From contig JAIBAM010000013.1 in the NCBI GenBank assembly GCA_019695175.1, positions 1-64,000 on the forward strand: a DNA stretch of 64,000 nt, read 5' to 3'. This DNA is from Bdellovibrionales bacterium. Lineage in GTDB: Bacteria; Bdellovibrionota; Bdellovibrionia; Bdellovibrionales; UBA1609. The position numbers and the translations under genes were made by a program. The notes beneath the pieces are model-generated. The model was not told the DNA's origin, made no database searches, and worked only from the letters and a program-made list of their open reading frames with translations. This document shows positions 20,466-27,126 of this stretch, piece after piece; within the stretch, counting starts at the first letter, position 1; each line of letters starts with the position of its first letter.

Positions 20466-20492
20466 TAAAGTAATAACGCGATAGGCCGAAAG
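20466..20492 (+). promoter_or_regulatory. Sigma28-type flagellar promoter of flagellin gene 1
   Basis: TAAAGTAA, an 11-base spacer, then GCCGAAAG closely matches the sigma28 (FliA) consensus TAAAGTTT-N11-GCCGATAA. It lies 154 bases before the GTG start of the first flagellin gene. A GCGATAGG repeat (20446, 20478) flanks the promoter. Confidence 0.7.
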
Positions 20493-20646: not shown

Positions 20647-21477
20647 GTGTCATTTCGAGTCAACTGTAATGTTATACCGACTCTCACTGCACAAAGGTTT
20701 TTAGCTAAAGCTCAAAGGGATACAGCCAAATCGCTAATTGCCCTATCCTCTGGATCACGGGTGACTCTGGCTGGGGATGATGCAGCTGGCTTTGCTATCT
20801 CTGAAAGTTTGCGGGGTCAATTAAGTGGTCTTAAACAGGCAAAATCAAATACAGGTAGTGCGATCTCCCTCATCCAAACTGCAGAGGGTGGTTTGAGCGA
20901 ACAAAATAATATTTTGGTGCGATTGCGGGAACTGGCGGTTTACGCTGCCAGCGATACGGTGGGAGAAGAAGAACGTGGTTTTTTAGATCATGAGTTTCAG
21001 CAGTTGGTAGCCGAATTCGATCGTATTGCCAAATCAACACGCTATGGGAATAAGTTTTTACTCACAGGGACTGGTGAAAAGTTTGAGTTTCAGGTGGGAC
21101 CTTATAAAGATTCAGAGAACCGCATTCATTTTAGTTTAGATGCGGATTCCACCTCTAGTGCTGTGGGAATTGATGGTCTGGCTGTGGACGATAAGGGAAA
21201 TGCCTTGGATGCACTTGAGTCTTTAGATGAGGCTTTAACCAAAGTGGCGGGAAATCGAACTGCTTTTGGTGCGATGCAATCTCGACTACAGTTTACTGCA
21301 GATACTTTGGGGGTTCAGGCAGAAAATATAGAAGCTGCAAGATCACAGATTGCAGATACGGATGTGGCGGAAGCTGTCAGTATTTTGGCAAAAAACCAAA
21401 TTCAGCAGGAAGCTGCTGTTTCTGTGCTAGCTCAGGCAAATAACGACCATCAACGTTTGTTACGTTTGATTGGATAA
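20647..21477 (+). CDS. fliC: Flagellin 1 (short, two-domain type)
   Basis: Filament subunit of 276 residues. The conserved N-terminal helices (SLIALSSGSRVTLAGDDAAG, AISESLRGQLSGL, TAEGGLSEQNNILVRLRELA) and the C-terminal helices (GAMQSRLQFTADTL, AARSQIADTDVAEAV) are present. The central part is short, so surface domains D2/D3 are almost absent, as in Bdellovibrio flagellins with sheathed filaments. It is the most divergent of the four: it starts with GTG, reads MSFRVNCNVIP instead of MGLRINTNV, and so has a Cys at position 7, rare in flagellins. The gene is single, with a sigma28 promoter before it and a hairpin after it. Confidence 0.95.
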   Translation: MSFRVNCNVIPTLTAQRFLAKAQRDTAKSLIALSSGSRVTLAGDDAAGFAISESLRGQLSGLKQAKSNTGSAISLIQTAEGGLSEQNNILVRLRELAVYAASDTVGEEERGFLDHEFQQLVAEFDRIAKSTRYGNKFLLTGTGEKFEFQVGPYKDSENRIHFSLDADSTSSAVGIDGLAVDDKGNALDALESLDEALTKVAGNRTAFGAMQSRLQFTADTLGVQAENIEAARSQIADTDVAEAVSILAKNQIQQEAAVSVLAQANNDHQRLLRLIG

Positions 21478-21562: not shown

Positions 21563-21652
21563 TTTCATTAAAAAATTTTTTCAAAAAAATTTATCTTCAA
21601 AAACTCTCTTAAAATCCAATACAAGACGCAATTGGTTAGAAACTCGACTGGA

Positions 21653-21687
21653 CTTTGGTCTCAAGCTTCCTAGACCAAAGCCGAGAA
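21653..21687 (+). promoter_or_regulatory. Sigma28-type promoter of flagellin gene 2 overlapped by a dyad
   Basis: TCAAGCTT (21661-21668), an 11-base spacer and GCCGAGAA (21680-21687) form a good sigma28 promoter 204 bases before the ATG of flagellin 2. A perfect 9-bp inverted repeat, CTTTGGTCT (21653-21661) and AGACCAAAG (21672-21680), brackets the -35 element and touches the first base of the -10. That position suits an operator for a repressor, or an RNA hairpin. The rest of 21563-21891 is a long untranslated leader with no other feature I can name. Confidence 0.55.
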
Positions 21688-21891
21688 GTGTTTTGAACAC
21701 GTTGGAGTCAACTTCAGTTAAACCCGTTTCAGCAGTCACTGGATACGGAATTTTTCTGATGGAGGTGAAAAAGGTTCAGGGTCAGTCACCCCTGTTTTTT
21801 TCACCTTCGGGGTCTTAAATGATGAAGTGTTTTCATCAAAGTCCTTAACCTCCAGCATAAATAAATAACGTTTATAACGTTGGAGGGTTCT

Positions 21892-22719
21892 ATGGGCTTA
21901 AGAATCAATACTAACGTTGCCTCAATTGGAGCGCAGCGGGTTTTATCAAAACAGCAACAAAGAATGGAGCATGCGCAAATGGCGCTCGCTTCAGGAACTA
22001 AAATAGTCAAAGCTGCAGACGATGCTGCGGGGCTGGCGATTTCGGAAAATATTCGAGGACAATTAGTGGGTATTAAAATGGCCCGTAATAACTCTTATAA
22101 TGCCCAATCCCTTGTTCAAGTAAGTGAGGGTGGACTCAACGAAATCAATAATATTTTAATTCGATTAAGAGAACTGGGAGTACAAGGTGCCAGTGATACC
22201 GTCAGTGATGTGGAACGGGAATTTTTGGATCAAGAGGCACAACAACTTCGAGAGGAAGCCGATCGTATTGCTAAATCCACTCGATTTGGAAATAAAGCTT
22301 TGTTGGATGGTTCCGGAGAAGAATTAGAATACCACGTGGGTCCATTTGCCGATGAAAGTGAAAACGTGATTAGCTATAAGGTGTCAGCTGATGCGACCAC
22401 CGGAACTCTTGGAATTGATAGTGTCTCTGTTGCAGACAAAGGCTCCGCGCGGGATACTCTGGCCGCAGTGGATGACGCTATCGTTAAAATCAGTAAAATG
22501 AGAGCCGATTTTGGTGCGGTACAAAGTCGATTGCAAATGACGACTAGCAATTTGGACATTCAATATGAAAATTTATCTGCGGCACGTTCCCGTATCTCCG
22601 ATGCAGACGTAGCCTACGAGTCTTCTGAGATGACTTCTGCTCAGATCTTGCAGCAAGCTTCCGTAGCTGTACTGGCAAATGCCAACCAGAACGGTGGCTT
22701 TGCTTTGAAGTTGATATAA
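21892..22719 (+). CDS. fliC: Flagellin 2 (short, two-domain type)
   Basis: Filament subunit of 275 residues starting MGLRINTNVASIGAQR at ATG 21892, after GGAGGG. It carries the usual N-terminal core (DDAAGLAISENIRGQL, VSEGGLNEINNILIRLREL) and C-terminal core (FGAVQSRLQMTTSNLD, SAARSRISDADVAYE), with a very short middle. It is closer to flagellins 3 and 4 than flagellin 1 is, but is clearly a separate paralogue. It is monocistronic, with its own sigma28 promoter, long leader and strong terminator. Confidence 0.97.
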   Translation: MGLRINTNVASIGAQRVLSKQQQRMEHAQMALASGTKIVKAADDAAGLAISENIRGQLVGIKMARNNSYNAQSLVQVSEGGLNEINNILIRLRELGVQGASDTVSDVEREFLDQEAQQLREEADRIAKSTRFGNKALLDGSGEELEYHVGPFADESENVISYKVSADATTGTLGIDSVSVADKGSARDTLAAVDDAIVKISKMRADFGAVQSRLQMTTSNLDIQYENLSAARSRISDADVAYESSEMTSAQILQQASVAVLANANQNGGFALKLI

Positions 22720-24407: not shown

Positions 24408-24744
24408 TGAAATTCCCCCTCATATCAAATCCCTTTAGAAATTATATACAATATCTATTGAGAGCAAGTTCAATGCCATTTTATAGGAGCTGGGGTTTCA
24501 TTTATTTTTATTTCACTTCTTTAAGTGTTTGAGTTTTAAATGTCGAAAAAAACATTTACGTCCTATTTTGAGAAACAAATTACTTTCCAAAATGTTAAAT
24601 TTAAAAATTTGAGACCACATTAAAATCCAAGCAAATAATACACTTAAAAGGTCTAATGATCCTTGGTGACACCTACCATAGGAGTCCTGGTGATCCTTCG
24701 CCAAGGGCTACACTTATAGTATTTGTAAACTAAAAAATTCAAAC
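24408..24744. other. Intergenic stretch before the flagellin 3 control region
   Basis: No convincing gene. The minus-strand open frame at 24513-24704 has a composition unlike neighbouring genes and no ribosome binding site. The informative DNA starts at 24745. Confidence 0.4.
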
Positions 24745-24832
24745 CAAAGTCCAGATATTTCCGGGTCAAAGTCCTTAAGTGGTCATACTAAAGTCTAGAA
24801 ATCATATTACCAAAGTCCAGATTCACTCGACC
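24745..24832 (+). promoter_or_regulatory. Array of four motifs phased at 22 bp upstream of flagellin 3
   Basis: [CT]AAAGTC starts at 24745, 24767, 24789 and 24811, exactly 22 bp apart. The fuller motif AGTC[CT]AGA[AT] is clear at 24748, 24792 and 24814 and degenerate at 24770. A reversed copy (GACTTTAG, 24834-24841) continues into the -35 element. Two helical turns per step would put bound proteins on one face of the DNA, so I read this as an activator or repressor array for the flagellin promoter. Confidence 0.6.
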
Positions 24833-24836
24833 CGAC

Positions 24837-24863
24837 TTTAGTTCAACTCGACCTGGCCGAATG
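24837..24863 (+). promoter_or_regulatory. Sigma28-type promoter of flagellin gene 3
   Basis: TTTAGTTC, an 11-base spacer and GCCGAATG, 230 bases before the ATG of flagellin 3. The -35 is weaker than consensus, which would suit dependence on the activator-like array just upstream. Confidence 0.55.
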
Positions 24864-25093
24864 AATAGTCACAACGATTGAGTTGTTTAGATTCTGAAAG
24901 CAATCGGGCTGAGAATTTTATGATCGTGTGACTGCGACATAAAATTTGTTTGAGGTTCGCTGCGAATAAAGTTTCCAAATAACTCCAACGTGTTCAACCA
25001 AACTTTGTGCAAGGTTGCATCCTTCAACAAGGGACTCTGAGGTCGAGACCCTTGTTGAAGAAGGAAGGATTCTTAAACAAAAAGGAGTGTACC

Positions 25094-25927
25094 ATGGGAT
25101 TAAGAGTTACCACCAATTTGGCTTCTATTAGTGCGCAACGGACAATGGCCGGTAGTCAAAGGGAGATACAAAAGAGTTTCGCTCAGTTGTCTTCTGGAAG
25201 TCGGATCACCAAAGCAGCTGATGATGCTGCTGGATTATCGATTAGTGAAACCTTAAGATCGACCATTCGCGGGTACACTCAGGCCCAAAGAAATGCGAAT
25301 GACGGAATTTCCATGGTTCAAGTTTCAGAGGGGGGACTGGGTGAGATTTCCAACATATTAACCCGAATGCGAGAACTGGGTGTTCAGGCAGCCTCTGATA
25401 CAGTGGGGGAAGTGGAACGGGGATTTATTGATAAGGAAGTTCAACAACTAAAAAATGAAATGGAACGAATCGCAAAGACCACTCGTTGGGGAACACAAAA
25501 TCTTTTGGATGGAAGTGGTCAAGAGTACGCTTTTCAAGTGGACATTAATAATGATGATTTTAATGATCGGATCAGCTTTGATGCCGGACAACAGGATGCA
25601 ACCATCGACACCCTGGGCGTTTCCGGTTTTGATTTTTCTAGTAAAGAAGGTGCCAGGGAAGCTCTGGAAAACTTGGAGACAGCACAACGAACCGTTAACG
25701 GCTATCGTGCCAACCTGGGAGCGATTCAAAACCGGCTGATTTCTACAGGAGAAAATCTAGGTGTAGCCATTGAGAATTTTTCTGCAGCCAACTCGCGAGT
25801 GCGAGACACAGATATTGCCCAGTCGTCTGCAGAATTGGCACGTAACAATATTTTACTCAATGCTTCTGTAGGTGTCTTGGCACAAGCCAATGCCCAACCA
25901 GCTGCGGCCTTACGATTGATTCAGTAA
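25094..25927 (+). CDS. fliC: Flagellin 3 (short, two-domain type)
   Basis: Filament subunit of 277 residues, starting MGLRVTTNLASISAQRTMAG at ATG 25094 after AAGGAG. An upstream frame extension to 25007 lies in the leader and is rejected. The core helices are nearly identical to flagellin 4 (SFAQLSSGSRITKAADDAAG, TIRGYTQAQRNANDGIS, ENFSAANSRVRDTD). They differ mainly in the short central part, which has an acidic DINNDDFNDRI segment in this gene. The pair looks like a recent tandem duplication that kept separate promoters. Confidence 0.97.
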   Translation: MGLRVTTNLASISAQRTMAGSQREIQKSFAQLSSGSRITKAADDAAGLSISETLRSTIRGYTQAQRNANDGISMVQVSEGGLGEISNILTRMRELGVQAASDTVGEVERGFIDKEVQQLKNEMERIAKTTRWGTQNLLDGSGQEYAFQVDINNDDFNDRISFDAGQQDATIDTLGVSGFDFSSKEGAREALENLETAQRTVNGYRANLGAIQNRLISTGENLGVAIENFSAANSRVRDTDIAQSSAELARNNILLNASVGVLAQANAQPAAALRLIQ

Positions 25928-26116: not shown

Positions 26117-26204
26117 ACTTGAGCCTAAAAATGATACGCCTTAGATCTTGAAAATACAGCCAAGAGTCTAGAAATGTAACGACTTCAGTCTAGAACTGCT
26201 CGAC
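26117..26204 (+). promoter_or_regulatory. 22-bp phased motifs upstream of flagellin 4
   Basis: AGTCTAGAA occurs at 26165 and again at 26187, exactly 22 bp apart, with weaker forms about 22 and 44 bp further upstream (AGATCTTGAA near 26143, AGCCTAAAA near 26122). The last motif starts 42 bp before the -10 element, the same distance as at flagellin 3. Shared motif, period and register point to one regulator acting on both genes. Confidence 0.5.
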
Positions 26205-26209
26205 GAGAC

Positions 26210-26236
26210 TTCAGTGTGTGCTGGCCTCGCCGAATG
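26210..26236 (+). promoter_or_regulatory. Sigma28-type promoter of flagellin gene 4
   Basis: TTCAGTGT, an 11-base spacer and GCCGAATG. The -10 is identical to that of flagellin 3, and the leader is short (56 bases). Confidence 0.55.
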
Positions 26237-26292: not shown

Positions 26293-27126
26293 ATGGGATT
26301 ACGAGTCGCTACCAACGTTGCTGCTATCAGTGCACAAAAAACAATGGCTTCCAGTCAAAGAGAAATACAAAAAAGTTTTGCACAACTTTCCTCTGGCAGT
26401 CGTATTACTAAAGCGGCTGACGATGCGGCCGGCCTATCGATCAGTGAAACTTTAAGATCAACGATTCGTGGTTACACTCAAGCCCAAAGAAATGCCAATG
26501 ATGGAATCTCCATGGCCCAGGTGGCAGAGGGAGGGTTGGGTGAAATTAGTAATATCCTGACTCGATTAAGAGAGTTGGGTGTTCAAGCTTCATCCGATAC
26601 CGTGGGAGCCACTGAAAGAACGTTTATTGATAAAGAGGTGCAACAATTAAAAAGTGAGGCTGAGCGTATTGCCCAATCCACTCGCTTTGGAAAATCCAAA
26701 TTATTAAATGGCGAAGGTGAAAATTTTTCATTTCAGATTGATATTAACAATGATGATTTTGAAGATCGAATTGCATTTGATGCCAGTCAATTGCAGGCCA
26801 CCAATTCGGCTTTGGGGATAGATGGTTTTGATTTTTCCGAGAAAGAAGGAGCTCAAGCTTCATTGGAAGTGCTGGAGGATGCTCAGCGCAGTGTCAATGG
26901 AATGAGGGCTACATTGGGAGCGATTCAAAACCGCTTGGTTTCCACTACTGAAAATTTAGGTGTTGCCATTGAAAATTTCTCTGCTGCGAATTCTCGTGTG
27001 CGCGATACAGATTTGGCCCAGTCTTCTGCAGAGTTAGCTCGAAACAACATACTTTTGAATGCTTCCGTGGGAGTTCTGGCCCAAGCCAATGCTCAACCAA
27101 ATATGGCTTTGCGCTTGTTACAATAA
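26293..27126 (+). CDS. fliC: Flagellin 4 (short, two-domain type)
   Basis: Filament subunit of 277 residues starting MGLRVATNVAAISAQKTMAS, preceded by AAAAGGAG. Most of the N-terminal 100 and C-terminal 50 residues match flagellin 3. The middle differs (GEGENFSFQIDINNDDFEDR; SALGIDGFDFSEKEGAQ). The gene is monocistronic. No strong terminator hairpin is visible in the 150 bases after it, so some transcription may continue into the CFI-box gene. Confidence 0.97.
   Translation: MGLRVATNVAAISAQKTMASSQREIQKSFAQLSSGSRITKAADDAAGLSISETLRSTIRGYTQAQRNANDGISMAQVAEGGLGEISNILTRLRELGVQASSDTVGATERTFIDKEVQQLKSEAERIAQSTRFGKSKLLNGEGENFSFQIDINNDDFEDRIAFDASQLQATNSALGIDGFDFSEKEGAQASLEVLEDAQRSVNGMRATLGAIQNRLVSTTENLGVAIENFSAANSRVRDTDLAQSSAELARNNILLNASVGVLAQANAQPNMALRLLQ

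Follow-up and report, generated by a model that had tools for sequence, protein, structure and literature searches.

The flagellin locus and its promoter arrays

The window, the whole 64,000-nucleotide stretch of DNA analysed here, belongs to a draft genome (G000) of 2.6 Mb and 97% completeness and carries four flagellin genes (F1 to F4; Table 1). Upstream of flagellin 3, YAAAGTC starts at 24745, 24767, 24789 and 24811, in exact 22-bp steps; upstream of flagellin 4, AGTCTAGAA stands at 26165 and, 22 bp further on, at 26187. In both genes the last motif lies 42 bp from the -10 element GCCGAA (24814 to 24856; 26187 to 26229). An earlier note had read these coordinates and distances from the letters and all of them are right, with the refinement that the full AGTCYAGAW occurs in only three of the four units upstream of flagellin 3, the second unit reading AGTCCTTAA.

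Pairs of YAAAGTC at 22 bp occur three times in the window and never in 100 shuffles of it. Taken singly, the motif is common: AAAGTCYAGAW with at most one mismatch is found 325 times genome-wide against 383 for the reversed pattern, and RGTCYAGWTT is under-represented (48 against 94 for the control). The signal therefore lies in the 22-bp register and the position.

Table 1. Features of the flagellin locus, in window coordinates; all promoter positions are counted from the -10 element, not from mapped start sites
Feature	Position	Strand	Basis or remark
Sigma28 promoter of flagellin 1, plain, TAAA-N15-GCCGAAAG, box-free	20466..20492	+	sequence; PWM scan
Flagellin 1 gene	20647..21477	+	Flagellin_N and Flagellin_C (Pfam)
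Inverted box CTGGAC just 5' of the flagellin 2 -35	21648..21653	-	22 bp from next box
Probable sigma28 -35 of flagellin 2, GTCTCAAG	21658..21665	+	GYCTAAAG consensus among relatives
Inverted box CTAGAC between flagellin 2 -35 and -10	21670..21675	-	sequence and relatives
Sigma28 -10 of flagellin 2, GCCGAGA	21680..21686	+	conserved GCCGAGAAG
Leader motif of flagellin 2, TGAACACGTTGGAG	21694..21707	+	exact reverse complement of flagellin 3 leader motif
Flagellin 2 gene	21892..22719	+	Flagellin_N and Flagellin_C (Pfam)
Four direct putative operator units of flagellin 3, 22-bp steps	24741..24823	+	sequence; shuffle test
GTC cores of the flagellin 3 array	24749, 24771, 24793, 24815		-107, -85, -63, -41 from -10
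CTCGAC half-site just 5' of the flagellin 3 -35	24826..24831	+	CTSGAC conserved at -30..-25 in 43 promoters
Sigma28 -35 of flagellin 3, GACTTTAG	24834..24841	+	sequence and conservation in relatives
Sigma28 -10 of flagellin 3, GCCGAATG	24856..24863	+	sequence and conservation in relatives
Leader motif of flagellin 3, CTCCAACGTGTTCA	24983..24996	+	exact reverse complement of flagellin 2 leader motif
Flagellin 3 gene	25094..25927	+	Flagellin_N and Flagellin_C (Pfam)
Two putative operator units of flagellin 4, 22 bp apart	26158..26196	+	sequence; register in relatives
GTC cores of the flagellin 4 units	26166, 26188		-63, -41 from -10
CTCGAC half-site 5' of the flagellin 4 -35	26199..26204	+	sequence and conserved CTSGAC
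Sigma28 -35 of flagellin 4, GACTTCAG	26207..26214	+	sequence and promoters of relatives
Sigma28 -10 of flagellin 4, GCCGAATG	26229..26236	+	sequence
Flagellin 4 gene	26293..27126	+	Flagellin_N and Flagellin_C (Pfam)

Conservation across Bdellovibrionia

Promoters in relatives named Bdellovibrionales, Bdellovibrionaceae and Bdellovibrio were picked by a loose sigma28 pattern alone (GACT..RG, 13-15 bp, GCCGAW), with the box itself left out of the selection; four unrelated matches were dropped, leaving 43 promoters. Across these the box is nearly invariant, with G, T, C, A and G at -41, -40, -39, -37 and -36 in 42, 42, 43, 41 and 43 promoters, respectively. The flagellin 3/4-type consensus runs GAC-N4-GTCYAG-WTT, CTSGAC, N, C, GACTWAAG, N14, GCCGAAAGG, with a further GAC-N4-GTCYAG-WTT unit at -63 and weaker copies near -85 and -107. 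The sigma28 core of the 43 is recognisable from the -35 GACTNNAG, N14 and GCCGAA, as that of flagellin 1 is from its own -35 and -10 (Table 1). The resulting layout is class-wide: CTRGAC-N4-GTCYAGWTT at -41 and -63, a CTSGAC half-site, GACTNNAG as -35 and GCCGAA as -10.

In the sequence logo, the promoter-proximal unit has GAC at -48 and GTC at -41, giving the GAC-N4-GTC centre of a LuxR-type site; the right half of the unit is the strongest, and the left half is weak in the upstream units. Such a centre with outer CT...AG suits dimers of the CRP/FNR or LuxR type and is the geometry of the LuxR-type box. The next box stands exactly at -63 in 31 of 41 flagellin 3/4-type promoters, and over all flagellin upstream regions a box spacing of 22 bp was counted 34 times, any other spacing at most twice. 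When the regions upstream of flagellin genes, 144 in all, were scanned with a PWM, the box came out at offset 0 for the flagellin 3/4-type genes of Bdellovibrionales, and none was found before Bacteriovoracaceae flagellins.

When the 46-bp architecture was searched with up to two mismatches in 26 genomes, it matched at flagellins only; it is present in B. bacteriovorus kdesi (G128:C1:219074) and Bdellovibrio sp. qaytius (G129), and at the same threshold it has no match in five flagellin-less relatives. Two genomes outside the order and inside the class (G116, G117) have the array, which was not found in five other members of the phylum outside Bdellovibrionia. The earlier note had proposed relatives as a test of the 22-bp period and of the distance to the -10, and both are kept there. 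Because 22 bp corresponds to two helical turns, the units should lie on one face of the DNA, and the idea of a dedicated site, occupied side by side at a constant offset from a sigma28 promoter, is supported at the level of sequence.

Two contigs recorded as Streptomyces griseus (L049 and L094; CALQIT020000016.1 and CALQIT020000018.1) encode Bdellovibrio-type flagellins, that of L049 with the array; the species label of these contigs looks wrong.

Flagellins 1 and 2: other promoter layouts

Flagellin 1 has a sigma28 promoter with no boxes, and a PWM scan likewise found none at flagellin 1-type sigma28 promoters of relatives. Flagellin 2 carries the box twice, inverted, over its core promoter. 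In relatives, flagellin 2-type promoters read CTRGACC, GYCTAAAG (-35), TTYC, CTRGACC, about AAA, and GCCGAGAAG (-10), the two inverted boxes again being 22 bp apart. The earlier statement that flagellins 1 and 2 lack the motif holds for the first of these genes and misleads about the second, and a division of flagellins 3 and 4 from flagellins 1 and 2 is not borne out, flagellin 1 alone being free. There is one box word, in three placements at three flagellin types.

An orphan LuxR/GerE-type protein as candidate binder

A GerE domain is encoded in 57 of 59 genomes, and the top match is mostly one short orphan protein made up of MLRDVLIQKGLSNREAEVAELVTKGLSNKEVANQLFVTEKTVKFHLTNIYKKMNVKSRAQLIVWCLPHLGFVE and a variable tail. 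In the genome of the window it lies at G000:C16:20530-20748 and has about 130 amino acids. Pfam matches above cut-off comprise GerE alone, with no receiver, autoinducer-binding or ligand domain; classification as a quorum-sensing LuxR protein or a two-component response regulator was accordingly rejected. The nearest solved structures are VpsT, VraR, NarL and GerE, with DosR (1zlk) further down. The C-terminal tail is of low complexity and variable, with a recurring NTIPAG motif (L210 1456-1869; orthologues L190-L239). In one genome of the same order (G048; L218), the gene is divergent from a pair that looks cheY-like and cheX-like, as named from sequence.

The orthologue is restricted to Bdellovibrionia, which is also the range of the array; its identity is 83-100% in flagellate members and 57-92% in flagellin-less lineages, and in nearly all array-bearing genomes it is at least 83%. 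Three genomes (G021, G052, G114) have the array and no orthologue in their assemblies, which are drafts of 90-99% completeness; over some hundred genomes, three absences are about what such completeness would lead one to expect.

The luxR-type gene itself has the box upstream, as [AG]GTCYAGWTT; a conserved AGACTTTWAT core follows, in most cases 55-57 bp downstream of the box. A box lies within 200 bp upstream of 34 of 45 luxR-type genes, against a background at the same loci of 0.009 per 200 bp (about 80-fold); this frequency and the nearly fixed distance to the core are as one would expect of an autoregulatory box. The other 11 genes have no clean box. At this promoter the right half-site alone is conserved, with no palindrome, and the box is kept in four flagellin-less genomes (G003, G015, G020, G022). 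The luxR-type gene is the sole regulator found with a box conserved across the class. The earlier note had named no regulator; the dedicated site it proposed was upheld where its grouping of the flagellins was not, and the LuxR-type protein can now be put forward as a candidate.

Weighing the binder

The units of the array are probably operators at which a sequence-specific regulator acts on sigma28 (FliA) flagellin promoters, and the LuxR/GerE-type protein is the best candidate for that regulator. The most serious competitor, to which we give clearly less weight, is that the operators are real and a different regulator binds them, with the luxR-type gene as its target, or a third protein binding both promoters. 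Conservation of just a half-site at the luxR-type promoter and the three array-bearing assemblies that lack the orthologue would agree with such an arrangement; however, no other regulator was found with a class-wide conserved box, the distribution of the LuxR-type protein matches that of the array with few missing cases, all of them draft assemblies, and a GerE dimer would suit the GAC-N4-GTC geometry. Operators of the CRP/FNR family would explain the resemblance of TRGAC-N4-GTCYA to the FNR box TTGAT-N4-ATCAA in symmetry and spacing, and 22 bp is the length of a CRP-type site, yet HTH_Crp_2 (PF13545) is absent from the 97% complete genome of the window and from three further array-bearing genomes (G009, G026, G038); a CRP/FNR protein was rejected as general binder on this ground, and the family is very improbable here.

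It is also unlikely that the upstream sequence is read by sigma28 RNA polymerase itself, as an upstream promoter element or as repeated -35-like sequences. YAAAGTC does look like the -35 TAAAG, and GAC recurs through the promoter at -70, -48, -27, -22 and -6, but flagellin 1-type sigma28 promoters are entirely without the box, the box also occurs inverted (flagellin 2) and at a promoter with no sigma28 core (the luxR-type gene), and the published B. bacteriovorus FliA consensus, TTAAG-N16-CCGATA, has none (PMC3627812). A functionless repeat arising by chance or recent duplication would sit well with the lack of genome-wide enrichment of the single motif; it is refuted by the 22-bp register, identical in many families and genera despite diverged flanks, and we regard its probability as negligible.

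Proposed action on the flagellin promoters

If the LuxR/GerE-type protein is the binder, this stand-alone protein would bind both the flagellin arrays and its own promoter, its dimers stacking side by side on one face of the DNA. Stacking would be nucleated at -41, because conservation decays outward from there. Bound beside the -35, the protein would most likely activate flagellins 3 and 4, judging from the position of the sites; by the same token, the inverted boxes over the flagellin 2 core would more likely repress flagellin 2. The space between -35 and -10 is a usual place for a repressor. Flagellin 1 would rely on FliA alone. The periodic GAC falls inside the flagellin 3/4 core as well (at -27 and -6), so that a repressing role is also possible at these two genes. 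On this model the LuxR-type protein may govern when each kind of flagellin is produced, and it would contribute to the sequence of their incorporation into the filament.

Published work bears on this picture at several points. FliA has been described as the master regulator of the attack phase (PMC3627812, PMC5430801), and the 140 attack-phase promoters mapped in one study, with 50 bases upstream of each start analysed, gave TTAAG-N16-CCGATA for FliA (PMC3627812). The promoters described here share with these a TAAG/GACTNNAG-like -35, a CCGA -10 and the spacing; the published consensus is of the core only, and the upstream operators of flagellin 3/4-type promoters are not in it. In E. coli, FliA alone suffices for strong activity of the B. 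bacteriovorus Bd0606 flagellin promoter (PMC5430801); the regulator would therefore not be strictly needed, if the Bd0606 promoter is of the array type. The tapered filament of B. bacteriovorus contains six flagellins in the fixed order FliC3-FliC5-FliC1-FliC2-FliC6, in a study that has no promoter analysis (PMC2791853). One sigma factor common to all flagellin genes cannot order the flagellins alone. With a further layer of control at particular sigma28 promoters, for which boxes are defined and a protein is proposed, flagellin ordering could be put to direct test in a predator amenable to genetics. In the non-subscription literature searched, including work on Bdellovibrio FliA promoters, we found neither the upstream box nor the LuxR-type protein described.

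Relation to known systems

LuxR/NarL-type operators resemble the array in their palindromic GAC-N4-GTC with outer CT...AG and in the presence of several boxes 5' of the target promoter. DosR/DevR boxes of mycobacteria read GGGACTWWAGTCCC, and lux boxes CT-N12-AG. Unlike such operators, the array sits on sigma28 flagellin promoters, keeps an exact 22-bp register and has a dominant right half; the candidate protein, unlike the corresponding regulators, lacks any receiver or ligand domain. Bacillus GerE and cyanobacterial PedR likewise have a LuxR-type DNA-binding domain without a sensor domain, whereas the candidate belongs to another clade, would have other targets and carries the variable, low-complexity tail with NTIPAG. 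In enterics, FlhDC and FliA converge on hybrid flagellar promoters, a parallel in that a second regulator besides FliA would act at one flagellar promoter; here, however, the site is a phased array adjoining the sigma28 -35, and the boxes have no known relation to FlhDC sites.

Complementary leaders of flagellins 2 and 3

Leaders of flagellin 3 have CTCCAACGTGTTCA some 110 nt 5' of the start codon, and leaders of flagellin 2 have its reverse complement directly after the -10, a complementarity of 14-15 nt. In the nine genomes with both leaders, 132 of 135 positions match, whereas 20,000 re-pairings gave 118 on average and never more than 130, the mark of covariation. This suggests that the flagellin 2 and flagellin 3 messages pair in trans, RNA to RNA; alternatively, the leader motifs may be a single DNA site that occurs in opposite orientations and was copied through gene conversion. 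An Rfam search of the flagellin region returned no matches. One might speculate, with considerable reserve, on a class-wide circuit of two layers, in which the LuxR-type protein turns flagellins 3 and 4 on and flagellin 2 off and the flagellin 2 mRNA pairs through its 5' end with the flagellin 3 leader, tuning flagellin 3 post-transcriptionally. Such a circuit, if true, would account for the layered filament of Bdellovibrio.

Boxes outside the flagellin promoters

The notion of a dedicated flagellar site applies to the whole architecture, which is confined to flagellins; the box by itself occurs elsewhere, chiefly before the orphan luxR-type gene. A broad regulon was rejected on the under-representation of RGTCYAGWTT in the window's genome (48 against 94). 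The type II secretion gene gspC was rejected as a general target, a conserved site being found only in genus g33 among 50 gspC upstream regions; in one genome (G042; L289 1479-1510, also L400-L406 in g33), two boxes before gspC are exactly 22 bp apart. Boxes 80-90 bp 5' of methyl-accepting chemotaxis protein genes were seen in only two genomes (L154, G081; L291, G048). Three genomes have a reversed box some 140-160 bp 5' of a further flagellin paralogue (L249, G000:C15:77249; G048:C1:407252; G053:C1:1844456), in the first of them between the paralogue and a divergent gene that looks like a glycosyltransferase and has no Pfam match. Two sites of the window's genome (L241, C3:8465; L247, C9:13436) share a repeat around TTACAARGCACTTTTTTGATGGTCTAGTTTAACTTTATAAGTCATCAG with the box inside. 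Finally, a perfect 22-bp palindrome, AAACTAGACCATGGTCTAGTTT, stands 5' of an open reading frame at G097:C7:49196-49217 (L147) and has the form of an ideal full operator at a non-flagellin locus.
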